Positions 13,278-16,006 of a DNA stretch of 37,699 nucleotides are shown here, in pieces. The notes below the pieces were generated by a model. That model had not been told where the DNA came from, did not search any database, and worked only from the letters and a program-made list of their open reading frames with translations. The position numbers and the translations under genes are program-made. Location of the stretch: IMG/VR virus record IMGVR_UViG_3300042868_002849, positions 1-37,699 of that record, one strand, 5' to 3'. Each line of letters starts with the position of its first letter. Position 1 is the first letter of the stretch. This stretch comes from a virus.

Positions 13278-13295
13278 TGTGGGCAATGTGGGCAA
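13278..13295 (+). repeat. GTGGGCAA-type repeat, copy 1
   Basis: TGTGGGCAATGTGGGCAA: two tandem TGTGGGCAA units. It lies immediately upstream of the start of the leftward gene at 13270. Confidence 0.9.
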
Positions 13296-13351
13296 TCGGA
13301 CAGTCAATTTTAAATCGCTCGACCCCTTTCATACAGTGTTTTTTTGCGCTG

Positions 13352-13367
13352 CTGTACACTTATACAG
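13352..13367. promoter_or_regulatory. LexA-like box CTGTACACTTATACAG
   Basis: This matches the gamma/betaproteobacterial LexA pattern CTGT-N8-ACAG exactly. It overlaps a perfect inverted repeat GTACACT-TATAC-AGTGTAC (13354-13372). ATACAGT recurs at 13331, 13362 and 13377. It may bind host LexA or a phage repressor with similar specificity; the match alone does not distinguish these. Confidence 0.55.
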
Positions 13368-13375
13368 TGTACGGA

Positions 13376-13391
13376 TATACAGTACTGTATA
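13376..13391. promoter_or_regulatory. 16-bp perfect palindrome TATACAGTACTGTATA
   Basis: A perfect dyad that starts four bases after the inverted repeat containing the LexA-like box and shares its ACAGT half-site. It looks like a second operator for the same or a related dimeric repressor. Confidence 0.7.
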
Positions 13392-13417
13392 AAGTAATTC
13401 ACAACTTTGATTTTTGA

Positions 13418-13436
13418 TGACCCACATTGCCCACAA
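13418..13436 (-). repeat. GTGGGCAA-type repeat, copy 2 (inverted)
   Basis: TGACCCACATTGCCCACAA contains the reverse complement of the repeat core. Inverted relative to copies 1 and 3. Confidence 0.9.
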
Positions 13437-13469
13437 ATGCCGATTCGCTAGTACTGGCGCGGCTTTTGG

Positions 13470-13487
13470 TGTGGGCAATGTGGGCAA
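13470..13487 (+). repeat. GTGGGCAA-type repeat, copy 3
   Basis: TGTGGGCAATGTGGGCAA, identical to copy 1 over all 18 bases. Confidence 0.9.
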
Positions 13488-13505
13488 AAAACATGACCCA
13501 CACGA

Positions 13506-13524
13506 TGACCCACATTGCCCACAA
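13506..13524 (-). repeat. GTGGGCAA-type repeat, copy 4 (inverted)
   Basis: TGACCCACATTGCCCACAA, identical to copy 2 over 19 bases. A half copy (ATGACCCACA) lies just before it at about 13493-13502. Confidence 0.9.
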
Positions 13525-13570
13525 TTGCCATAATTACCATACTAATTTACTCGGATATATAAAATATTAT

Positions 13571-13598
13571 TTGACAGAATAAAAGAATGTTTTATAAT
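13571..13598 (+). promoter_or_regulatory. Consensus sigma-70 promoter for the early rightward operon
   Basis: TTGACA (13571-13576), a 16-bp spacer, then TATAAT (13593-13598). Both hexamers are perfect. The upstream DNA is AT-rich. The start of transcription should fall near 13605, giving a leader of about 50 bases containing a CCGC...GCGG hairpin before the first small gene. The repeats at 13470-13524 lie at about -80 to -135. Confidence 0.85.
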
Positions 13599-13654
13599 GG
13601 CCATACCGCGACAAAATAGCGGTAATAAAATAAACTTTTATATAGGGTAAAAAA

Positions 13655-13732
13655 ATGCAAAAACTTACTGATACAACGATGGTTATTATTTTTTCCTTAT
13701 GTTTTCTTAAAGTTTTAACTATATTTTTTTAA
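13655..13732 (+). CDS. 25-residue membrane peptide
   Basis: First reading frame after the early promoter. It has ATG with AGGG at suitable spacing and encodes MQKLTDTT followed by one hydrophobic helix (MVIIFSLCFLKVLTIFF) running to the C-terminus. Its start context (AATGCAAAAACTT) is repeated at the start of the next gene, which suggests local duplication and supports real translation. A leader peptide or a small membrane-active early protein are both possible. It is too short for homology-based assignment. Confidence 0.5.
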   Translation: MQKLTDTTMVIIFSLCFLKVLTIFF

Positions 13733-13743
13733 GGGGAAAAACC

Positions 13744-13899
13744 ATGCAAAAACTTGATCTGATTATCGCCGCGTTATCGGGCGCCGCGCTCGCTCTGTTG
13801 TTTGTTGGCGCCGCTGAAAACATTTTCAATTTGACGGAAGTGTTATTTGCCGGCGCCGTATGTTGCGCCGCTTTTGTCTATTCAATAACAAGAGGTTAA
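13744..13899 (+). CDS. 51-residue membrane protein with two helices
   Basis: Starts with an ATG after AAGGGG. Two hydrophobic segments are visible, LIIAALSGAALALLFVG (about 6-22) and VLFAGAVCCAAFVY (about 33-46), joined by a short polar loop; the end is ITRG. It shares its first four residues (MQKL) and start-region DNA with the 25-residue peptide upstream. Its last codons contain the AAGAGG ribosome site of the next gene. Function unknown; early phage membrane proteins often act in superinfection exclusion or host takeover, but nothing here shows that. Confidence 0.65.
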   Translation: MQKLDLIIAALSGAALALLFVGAAENIFNLTEVLFAGAVCCAAFVYSITRG

Positions 13900-13901
13900 T
13901 T

Positions 13902-14549
13902 ATGAAAATTTCAGTTACTTCAAAACTTGACGGCGTGCGCTCTTGGTCTCTTGAGGCGCTTGAAACCTGTCCTGGATCAATTGCGGCGCCTGGCGTATTA
14001 GTTGACGCGTGCGCCGGTTGCTATGCGACGACGGGCAACTATAGATTCGCCAATGTTAAGGCGCCGCGCGCGCACAATAAAAAAGATTGGCAGCGCCTGG
14101 CCTGGTCTGACGATATGGTCGCCGAACTAGAAAAAGACACTTATTTTAGGTGGTTTGATAGCGGCGACATGTATACCTTGGCCCTGGCCGAAAAAATACT
14201 TGAGGTAATGAAGCGCACGCCGTGGGTGAAACATTGGTTACCTACGCGCATGTATAAGTTCCCGAAATTTCGTCAAGTGTTGACGGATATGCAAGCGCTT
14301 AAAAACGTGAGCGTGCGCTTTTCATCCGATTCTATAACGGGCGAATATACAAAGGGCCTACACGGTAGCGTGATAGTCCCTACGCCGGCGGATGCAAAAC
14401 GTGGTACGAAATTATGCGGCGCCTATGACAATAACGGCCAATGCGGCCCTTGCCGGGCGTGCTATGACAAGCGCGTAAAAGTGATTGCATACCCGGCGCA
14501 CGGCCGCAAAATGAATAAAGTGATTATGTTAAGAAAGGCGGCCGCGTGA
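13902..14549 (+). CDS. GP88-like cysteine-rich phage protein
   Basis: The ATG at 13902, after AAGAGG, is preferred over one at 13860. The product has 215 residues. It shows TCPGS (Cys23), then DACAGCYATTGNY (Cys37, Cys40), FRWFDSGDMY (82-91), WLPTRMYK (112-119), VRFSSDSI (138-145) and a C-terminal C-x8-C-x2-C-x2-C group (Cys172, 181, 184, 187). This order resembles the GP88/DUF7227-type phage family, and the C-x2-C-Y-A motif also recalls Gp37/Gp68 (DUF5131) proteins thought to have a radical-SAM-like fold. A metal or Fe-S site is therefore likely, but the reaction is unknown. It is the largest gene of the early operon. Confidence 0.65.
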   Translation: MKISVTSKLDGVRSWSLEALETCPGSIAAPGVLVDACAGCYATTGNYRFANVKAPRAHNKKDWQRLAWSDDMVAELEKDTYFRWFDSGDMYTLALAEKILEVMKRTPWVKHWLPTRMYKFPKFRQVLTDMQALKNVSVRFSSDSITGEYTKGLHGSVIVPTPADAKRGTKLCGAYDNNGQCGPCRACYDKRVKVIAYPAHGRKMNKVIMLRKAAA

Positions 14550-14776
14550 TGAAAACCATAACAGCGAAATTTCCTGGCTATTGCAAGAAAACCGGCGCAC
14601 GCATTTTGGCCGGCGATTTAATCCAATGGTCGAAAGCCGGCGCCGTTTTGCTTAAACGTGCGGCGGCCGGCGTCAATGCCATAACTCTAATCGGCGACCA
14701 GGGCGCTAAAACTTTTTACCGTAACGCACGCGGCCGGTGCATTGACGCACCTTGCTGCGGGTGTTGCACAATTTAA
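14549..14776 (+). CDS. Small cysteine-tailed hypothetical protein
   Basis: A 75-residue basic protein whose ATG overlaps the preceding stop (TGATG); an in-frame GTG lies one codon earlier. The N-terminus (KFPGYCKKTGARILAGDLIQ) resembles small zinc-knuckle-like domains of the type F-x-G-x-C-x-x-x-G-x-x-I-x-x-G. The C-terminus is a dense cysteine cluster (APCCGCC). Together these could bind a metal. Coupled translation with the GP88-like gene suggests a shared task. Function unknown. Confidence 0.6.
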   Translation: MKTITAKFPGYCKKTGARILAGDLIQWSKAGAVLLKRAAAGVNAITLIGDQGAKTFYRNARGRCIDAPCCGCCTI

Positions 14777-14790
14777 ACAAGGGGGAAATT

Positions 14791-14940
14791 ATGACTTACA
14801 GACAATTAATCGAAGCGGCCCTTGTGGCCGTAATCGACGCCGTTGAAAACGGCGATTCTGAAGCGGGCCTGGCAAGCGCTGAAAAAGCGATTGCATTACT
14901 CAAAACCTATTTATATGAGGTAGACACATGCACACAATAA
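14791..14940 (+). CDS. Small acidic helical protein
   Basis: The ATG at 14791 follows AAGGGGG and is preferred over an upstream ATG at 14752 inside the previous gene. It encodes 49 residues, nearly all helical (AALVAVIDAVENGDSEAG, then LASAEKAIALLKTYL), with an amphipathic pattern suggesting a two-helix hairpin or dimer. No membrane segment of full length. It overlaps the next gene by 13 bases. Function unknown. Confidence 0.55.
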   Translation: MTYRQLIEAALVAVIDAVENGDSEAGLASAEKAIALLKTYLYEVDTCTQ

Positions 14941-15218
14941 CGCTAGTCGTCGATAAAACGACCTACTACATTAACTCTACTACTGATCCGCTCGAATTGA
15001 CTAAGCGCGCGCGTAAACCTTATAAACCGGCAAAACCTAAGAACATACGTAAGTTTCCGACCTGGTTGCCGAATATGTCAACGGCGGCCTATATCGGACA
15101 ATTCGACAGCTTGAACATGCTGCGCAAAGTAGATTATATCGGCGCAAGTGAAACAAGCGCGGCGCAATATGATCCATCTATACCCTTGTTTGAAATTTTG
15201 CCTGATGAGGTGAGTTAA
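14928..15218 (+). CDS. Hypothetical early protein
   Basis: A 96-residue protein. A short beta-rich N-terminus (MHTITLVVDKTTYYIN) is followed by a very basic stretch (KRARKPYKPAKPKNIRKFPT) and a more neutral C-terminus. The basic segment could bind nucleic acid. The ATG follows GAGGTAGACAC. The stop overlaps the next start by one base. No family recognised. Confidence 0.6.
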   Translation: MHTITLVVDKTTYYINSTTDPLELTKRARKPYKPAKPKNIRKFPTWLPNMSTAAYIGQFDSLNMLRKVDYIGASETSAAQYDPSIPLFEILPDEVS

Positions 15219-15472
15219 TGAAAACATTAAAACTATACGTTGGTTCTAATAAGACAAAAGCATATGAAATTTTAGAGCGCGGATGCACTAACGAAGGCGC
15301 AACAGTTACCCGCAGGAATAAGGGCTGGAGCGATTTCGACGTAATCAGGAACCTGCAGAATCTTGGCTGGATTGAACCAAAACCGGCCGGAATTCGCGGC
15401 GGTATTCGGTATTTCACTACGCAAGCGGGCGCAGAAGAAATGAAAAAACCGTGGCACCAACATGAGGGCTAA
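15218..15472 (+). CDS. Small protein with winged-helix-like pattern
   Basis: The 84-residue protein has DFDVIRNLQNLGWIEPKPAG followed by GGIRYFTTQAGAEEM. That is the helix, turn and wing pattern of small winged-helix DNA-binding proteins, in which the recognition helix precedes a beta hairpin with an aromatic residue. The N-terminal helix (AYEILERGCTNEGATVTRR) would be helix 1-2. A role as early transcription regulator is possible; there is no other support. Confidence 0.55.
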   Translation: MKTLKLYVGSNKTKAYEILERGCTNEGATVTRRNKGWSDFDVIRNLQNLGWIEPKPAGIRGGIRYFTTQAGAEEMKKPWHQHEG

Positions 15473-15475
15473 AAA

Positions 15476-15664
15476 ATGGCATGGATACAAGTTAAATTAA
15501 ACGAGGTTACCAGGTACACAAGGGCCGGCAAAAACGGAAAATTTATATGCTGTCCAGCATGCGAATTCACGTTTAAGGTTTTCCATTTTGCCTGGTATTC
15601 AGTTAGGTGCCAAAAATGTAAAACGGTAACTCAAAAATACAATTTTAAAATTGCGGAGGTGTAA
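15476..15664 (+). CDS. Small zinc-ribbon protein
   Basis: The 62-residue protein has Cys25/Cys26-x2-Cys29 and Cys45-x2-Cys48 separated by an aromatic-rich strand region (FTFKVFHFAWYSV). This is a four-cysteine zinc ribbon similar in layout to phage Mu Com or small transcription-factor ribbons. Both ends are basic. It starts 3 bp after the previous stop. It probably binds nucleic acid or a host protein; the target is unknown. Confidence 0.65.
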   Translation: MAWIQVKLNEVTRYTRAGKNGKFICCPACEFTFKVFHFAWYSVRCQKCKTVTQKYNFKIAEV

Positions 15665-15666
15665 TT

Positions 15667-15927
15667 ATGGGAAAACTTAAAAACTCACTAATTGACGTGC
15701 GCTCGCCATATTGGCCGCATCATCTAGAGGTGTACGAATACGAGTACGACACCGGCGCCCTGTTATGCTTTCTCGAATACAGTGCGCCCGATAAGGGCGT
15801 TGGATACAACGGGAGCGCTTGGCTAGTGCATGCGTACGCCGGCGGCGTTGACGTCATCACGCTATTAAAAGACAACGTAATCAAAGAAATCGAGGCGCTA
15901 GCATGCTCGCAATTATCGCTAAATTAA
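15667..15927 (+). CDS. Hypothetical early protein
   Basis: An 86-residue protein with a mixed beta/alpha pattern: aromatic beta-rich N-terminus (YWPHHLEVYEYEYDTG), then strands, then a C-terminal helix (LLKDNVIKEIEALACS). The start follows GGAGGTGTAATT. No motif is recognised. It is the last sizeable gene before the operon terminator. Confidence 0.6.
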   Translation: MGKLKNSLIDVRSPYWPHHLEVYEYEYDTGALLCFLEYSAPDKGVGYNGSAWLVHAYAGGVDVITLLKDNVIKEIEALACSQLSLN

Positions 15928-15981: not shown

Positions 15982-16006
15982 GGCCCGCGCAAGCGGGCCT
16001 TTTTTT
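15982..16006 (+). terminator. Rho-independent terminator of the early operon
   Basis: GGCCCGC-GCAA-GCGGGCC (15982-15999) is followed by seven T on the plus strand. It ends the rightward early operon, 6 bp before the convergent primase-helicase stop. Confidence 0.9.

Follow-up and report, generated by a model that had tools for sequence, protein, structure and literature searches.

GP88-family phage proteins of radical-SAM-like predicted fold and their linkage to small proteins with an invariant cysteine tail

Many environmental phages carry, side by side, a gene for a GP88-family enzyme and a gene for a small protein with a cysteine-rich tail. Versions of the enzyme are exchanged beside one and the same tail, and this suggests an undescribed pair of enzyme and client. 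The starting point is a 37,699-base IMG/VR virus record, here called the window in its full length, which has genes for terminase, portal, DNA polymerase, primase and helicase. A short rightward operon sits between its leftward structural and leftward replication genes, and its genes and motifs, with its promoter-like site and terminator-like hairpin, are on the plus strand. The first gene of the operon (13744..13899) encodes a hydrophobic protein of 51 aa that weakly matches a holin profile (phrog_2359, E 7e-4). The second (13902..14549) encodes the GP88-family protein of 215 aa, a putative radical-SAM-like barrel enzyme, and the third (14549..14776) its cysteine-tailed partner of 75 aa. A small ORF for 49 aa follows (14791..14940), and in locus L004, which has no tail gene, it directly adjoins GP88. 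Four more small ORFs are without functional assignment (14928-15218, 15218-15472, 15476-15664 and 15667-15927). The operon ends at a strong terminator-like hairpin followed by T7 (15982..15999). Pfam and PHROG profiles reveal neither a maturation protease nor a transporter among its small ORFs.

Upstream of the operon there is a sigma-70 promoter-like site, TTGACA-16-TATAAT (13571..13598), that matches at 12/12 positions. Promoter-like sites in the region are close to chance in number (7, with 6.1 expected), and this is the only full match among them. The first-pass annotation had wondered about an early system, and such a candidate reading fits the presence of this promoter-like sequence. Two other features are found nearby. 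One is a 15-18 nt sequence, TGTGGGCAATGTGGGCAA, present in four copies and both orientations at 13278-13538, just upstream of the perfect promoter; these could be operator or iteron-like sites. The other is a 39-nt direct repeat (77%) at 13628-13755, which spans two leader-plus-start stretches ending ATGCAAAAACTT. Perhaps its first copy opens a short, degenerate version of the ORF at 13744.

It is clear that the 215-aa protein belongs to the GP88 family, as had been proposed from the letters. It matches PF17338 with 106.8 bits (Pfam, E 1.9e-30), above the curated cut-off of 24.4 bits for that profile. It also passes DUF7227 (PF23872, 1e-8), these two being its only Pfam matches, and falls in PHROG 1392, a family without known function. 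Searches of NCBIfam, PADLOC and PDB sequences gave no matches, and the literature searched held no relevant paper for GP88, DUF7227, the tail or three-cysteine enzymes of phages. The protein has exactly seven cysteines in two groups, three (23, 37 and 40) and four (172, 181, 184 and 187), and the earlier description of them holds over 51 relatives with identities down to 17%. Twelve columns are invariant in that set (C23, C40, Y41, R83, G88, D89, S141, C172, C181, C184, C187 and H200). These include six of the seven cysteines; the second one is kept between C23 and C40, and its position shifts.

The short motifs that had been picked out by eye are all present. C-A-G-C-Y-A (residues 37-42) is part of a three-cysteine loop, C23-x13-C37-x2-C40-Y-A (13968..14021), which is the proposed [4Fe-4S]/SAM site after strand 1. 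FDSGD (residues 85-89; 14154..14168) lies at a strand end according to the alignment and the model, with R83, G88 and D89 invariant. This site may be equivalent to the GGE motif of radical SAM enzymes. SSDSI (residues 141-145; 14322..14336), of which S141 is invariant, follows the strand at 136-140. Finally, a four-cysteine motif, C172-x8-C181-x2-C184-x2-C187 (14415..14462), is a possible second metal site. It is shared by the subfamilies called A, C and D below and absent from B.

What kind of enzyme might this be? One clue is the AlphaFold2 model, which is alpha/beta and fairly confident (pLDDT 79, pTM 0.80), with strands at 13-15, 81-84, 110-115, 136-140, 156-159 and 195-198. The loop with the three cysteines follows strand 1 in the model, and both SGD and SSD sit at the ends of strands. 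When it is compared with the PDB by VIA-align, the best 16 rows are all radical SAM enzymes, at modest Z scores of 4.5-6.2 (SuiB 6.2, QueE 5.5, EpeE 5.4, lysine aminomutase 5.1, ChlB 5.0, NifB 4.7 and BtrN 4.5). Foldseek found no PDB match at E <= 0.001, the best radical SAM chain having E 0.07. In BFVD the structural matches are Gp37/Gp68-like, DUF7227 and GP88 proteins, including those of archaeal viruses (a Nitrosopumilus spindle-shaped virus and a Halogranum tailed virus). The first-pass annotation had been reminded of radical-SAM-like folds and had looked to structure prediction for a barrel. This idea gains support from the beta/alpha model, the loop after strand 1 and the 16 best rows. 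The more classical signature is lacking: the canonical CxxxCxxC motif is absent from the window protein, where the spacing is C-x13-C-x2-C, and PF04055 has no match in records G141, G023 and G043, which hold A, B and C enzymes (14/14 control genomes were matched). With these two results and Z scores below 8, GP88 is a divergent radical SAM relative at most. As a statement about fold class, that it is radical-SAM-like has fair support from the model.

Four subfamilies of the enzyme can be told apart. Subfamily A is the window type (PHROG 1392), B corresponds to PHROG 1617, C to PHROG 2554, and D is a fourth. Profile comparison of pure sets joins A with D (8e-7), C with D (3e-9) and A with C (4e-5), and by these profile matches the three are homologous. 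Members of B pass PF17338, and it is only through PF17338 that B joins A. Subfamily B has three cysteines only, spaced CX7CX3C, and no four-cysteine site. The corresponding spacing in D is CX3CX5-6C.

The partner gene had been described as starting within the GP88 stop and ending in CCGCC. The overlap amounts to one base, the partner ATG at 14549 beginning on the last base of the TGA stop codon. The tail is exact as well, except that two residues follow CCGCC. The C-terminus is GRCIDAPCCGCCTI, ending CCGCCTI, and within it the hyperconserved tail C-I-D-A-P-C-C-G-C-C occupies residues 64-73 (14738..14767; pattern search and alignments). The partner is without a Pfam family. Its last third matches PHROG 5664 and PHROG 2656 (E 2.3e-8 and 2.2e-6) at the ends of those profiles. 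Across diverse bodies the tail reads mostly [YF][RQ]N-x2-G-R-C-[IE]-D-A-P-C-C-G-C-C, after which come one or two residues, most often TI. Ten tail residues contain five invariant cysteines together with an invariant D, A, P and G. To guard against circularity, a loose tail pattern was used in loci chosen by their enzyme, and 96/97 tail-like ends were exact. The 108 distinct tail DNAs use every synonymous codon at the fixed residues. With residues fixed while codons vary, the tail is held by selection at the protein level.

The predicted model leaves the tail unstructured, and the partner would be a small beta-rich body carrying a flexible tail, N-x2-G-R-C-[IE]-D-A-P-C-C-G-C-C. A reading of the body as a treble-clef zinc finger, made from its sequence, was dropped because its Cys is replaced by Asp in many members. 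For the body, comparison with a LIM domain gives a Z of only 2.0 across 36 residues, and DUF3331 matches are weak. In five loci (L173, L190, L179, L184 and L227) DAPCCGCC is internal and followed by an acidic or Gly/Tyr-rich stretch, and a C-terminal position is not required. In five others (L192, L211, L216, L272 and L288) the tail is fused to a DUF5710-like body (ITGNTYPVKDxIKALGG+W), and no GP88-type enzyme is present in these loci. Locus L237, whose body is similar to the DUF5710-like one, carries a B-type enzyme.

The tail motif gave no match in the literature searched. A DNA pattern for DAPCCGCC finds at least 120 viral loci; in prokaryote genomes, 257 Gb in all, it matches at only 21 positions. 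About nine of those 21 look true, mostly on MAG contigs, and a bacterial housekeeping role for the tail was rejected. The enzyme was found in none of the prokaryote-genome tail loci examined. A tail motif (L374, 4844-4867) is also present in a contig of Mycobacterium pinniadriaticum, probably in a prophage, with no recognisable GP88 in the 8 kb examined. That the tail is a chance feature local to the window is countered by the at least 120 viral loci, by the exact ends and by the linkage with the enzyme.

How close is this linkage? PF17338 is present in 23/46 tail records versus 0/45 random viral records (p = 6e-9). The other tail records seemed negative because further enzyme subfamilies, B, C and D, exist. 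In loci picked by the tail alone, the enzyme was sought with profiles built for all of A-D. This detected an enzyme in 100/120 of the tail loci listed. In 98 of these 120 a GP88-superfamily gene lies within 1 kb on the same strand, versus 1/58 random viral loci, the tail coming second in 90 and first in 8. The co-occurrence of the two genes that had been suspected in the window is real and extends much wider. When loci are found instead by similarity to the whole partner, an enzyme is directly upstream in 76/76 (A 19, B 30, C/D 27). Natural fusions joining the enzyme to the tail were not encountered.

The pairing is not confined to one kind of body or one kind of enzyme. All four subfamilies are found beside a beta-type body (A 30, B 33, C 21 and D 39), and other bodies, too, go with A, B, C and D. 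Among these, a body of CxxC type accompanies A, B and D, and tails with almost no body accompany C. What every pair shares is the tail alone, and neither a body nor a single enzyme subfamily. The clearest case is provided by two loci, L084 and L085, which share 81-95% DNA identity with the window in both flanks and 89% in the tail gene. Their partner protein is 95% identical to that of the window. Where the window has an A-type enzyme, theirs is of B type, with no meaningful BLAST similarity. The enzyme gene has been cleanly replaced and the tail gene kept.

What if the two are simply independent early or accessory genes of one modular operon, with the tail serving a purpose of its own (it might bind a host protein) and phage relatedness and shared insertion sites accounting for the link? 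We consider this rather doubtful, and it is the alternative that survives best. The 120 listed tail loci collapse into 19 groups at the DNA level, two of which hold 95 loci, and 98/120 was rejected as a count of independent evidence. Since relatedness inflates the raw count, the group-level numbers are the ones to quote. By phage group the enzyme is in the locus in 7/19 and in the record in 9/19, versus 1/36 control groups (p = 1e-4). It follows that 12/19 groups, among the tail loci listed, are without an enzyme in the locus. No enzyme is detectable in 17/120 of the tail records listed or in the complete mycobacteriophage BabyRay. Mycobacteriophages can hold both genes at a distance (gp83 and gp74 of Severus are about 3 kb apart), and among Mycobacterium records GP88 is in 237 and the tail in 195. 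Other radical SAM genes serving the orphan tails would be no general answer, with only two candidates among 14 enzyme-less tail records: a DUF5131 gene at 106104-106925 in the record of L277 (G139) and a PF04055 radical SAM gene at 55371-55841 in that of L216 (G028), each elsewhere in a tail phage without GP88.

Enzymes without the tail are also common. The first-pass annotation had named relatives in which the partner is always absent as the case that would count against it. That case did not arise, since the pair is found well beyond the window. Still, the partner is missing beside 54/80 close A relatives, 51/79 C relatives and 31/80 B relatives, the C relatives without it being almost all of the more distant ones. 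Nor does the tail lie elsewhere in long tail-less enzyme records (0/40). Given this absence, beside the enzyme and anywhere in 40/40 long records, the enzyme does not need the tail, and the link between the two is optional, not obligatory. An optional link fits independent genes in one operon. However, independence fits poorly with the persistence of the excess at group level, with adjacency that stays though the gene order flips, and with an enzyme whose place is taken by a divergent relative from its own superfamily, rather than by unrelated genes, next to a tail that is kept.

The reading we prefer, at a little below an even chance, is that GP88 is a phage enzyme of radical-SAM type and that its operon also encodes a small client, rich in thiols, that it acts on or with. 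The three N-terminal cysteines would hold a [4Fe-4S] cluster, and this cluster and the SGD motif would jointly bind S-adenosylmethionine and cleave it. The four C-terminal cysteines of subfamilies A, C and D may hold a second metal site. The enzyme would recognise the tail and either modify at least one of its residues or load or bridge its thiols, and a fixed product or metal site would result. Recognition of the tail by the enzyme would account for the swapped enzyme, the mixture of bodies, the change in gene order and the constancy of the tail residues. The most economical reading of the data is tentatively radical-SAM-type chemistry on a cysteine-rich peptide, or thiol/metal loading of it. 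A more specific proposal is a phage RiPP-like or peptide-cofactor system, in which interchangeable radical-SAM-type GP88 enzymes of A-D install a single fixed modification, or a metal centre, on the invariant DAPCCGCC tail that various small proteins have received. We regard this as unlikely.

Perhaps the tail protein is itself the helper: its five cysteines would bind Fe, Zn or an Fe-S cluster and deliver metal or electrons to the enzyme, and the protein would remain unmodified. Five invariant cysteines in ten residues with an invariant D, A, P and G, the flexibility of the tail in the model, and the one or two probable cluster sites of the enzymes are all consistent with this. Nevertheless, many enzymes are without a tail in cis or in the record, so it is not needed for general cluster supply. 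In addition, subfamily B, without the four-cysteine site, pairs as readily as the others, so repair of a second cluster is unlikely to be the common role, and the partner as a helper of that cluster in particular is disfavoured. On balance a metal or redox helper seems unlikely. An immunity or toxin-antitoxin-like pair, or an anti-defence cassette, would suit small overlapping genes with frequent gain and loss and modular swaps, but it is highly improbable, with no PADLOC model match and with enzyme and tail each stable without the other.

The link matters because GP88 is a widespread phage family without an assigned function. Four subfamilies tied to one invariant tail provide the first concrete candidate for what GP88 enzymes act on, and the tail is short enough to be synthesised as a peptide and assayed. 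If it is modified, this would be a viral peptide-modification system with a frozen core and a swapped carrier and enzyme. If it is merely a metal or redox helper, it would still offer a handle on many unexplained phage proteins.

Among known systems, the window protein is a clear member of the GP88 family (PF17338, with DUF7227, PF23872; PHROGs 1392, 1617 and 2554). That family is without known function, and neither a tail partner nor interchangeable subfamilies appear in the literature found. The radical SAM superfamily (PF04055), which includes the peptide-modifying SuiB, EpeE and ChlB as well as QueE, NifB and BtrN, is of the fold class predicted for GP88. GP88 resembles it in the three-cysteine loop after strand 1 and has an acidic G-D motif where that class has GGE, with the second four-cysteine site in A, C and D. 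It differs in cysteine spacing, in its shorter chain and in being unrecognised by PF04055. DUF5131, or phage Gp37/Gp68 (PF07505), proteins have a comparable motif order (C..CxxCYA, SMSD, LTKR and GVSVE in L534) and a BFVD structural match to the GP88 model at E 4e-4. When the four pure subfamilies were aligned by hhalign with a single DUF5131 sequence, E was 0.04-0.19, which is not significant, though one sequence makes a weak test. PF07505 does not match the window protein in the Pfam search.

GP88 and the two tail PHROGs are known as uncharacterised families; as far as our searches reach, no description exists of their coupling, of four subfamilies that can replace one another or of the frozen tail. 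The nearest functional parallel is with RiPP enzyme-precursor pairs that have a fixed C-terminal core, such as mycofactocin (MftA) and PQQ (PqqA). As in those pairs, the gene of a radical SAM-type enzyme, here a putative one, adjoins a short, precursor-like gene in which conservation is highest at the C-terminal end. Unlike them, the GP88 operon has no further maturation genes that could be seen, and modification is a proposal only. The 'leader' is also of another kind, being an exchangeable folded body here, and the tail that it carries can be internal, as in L173 and L190.
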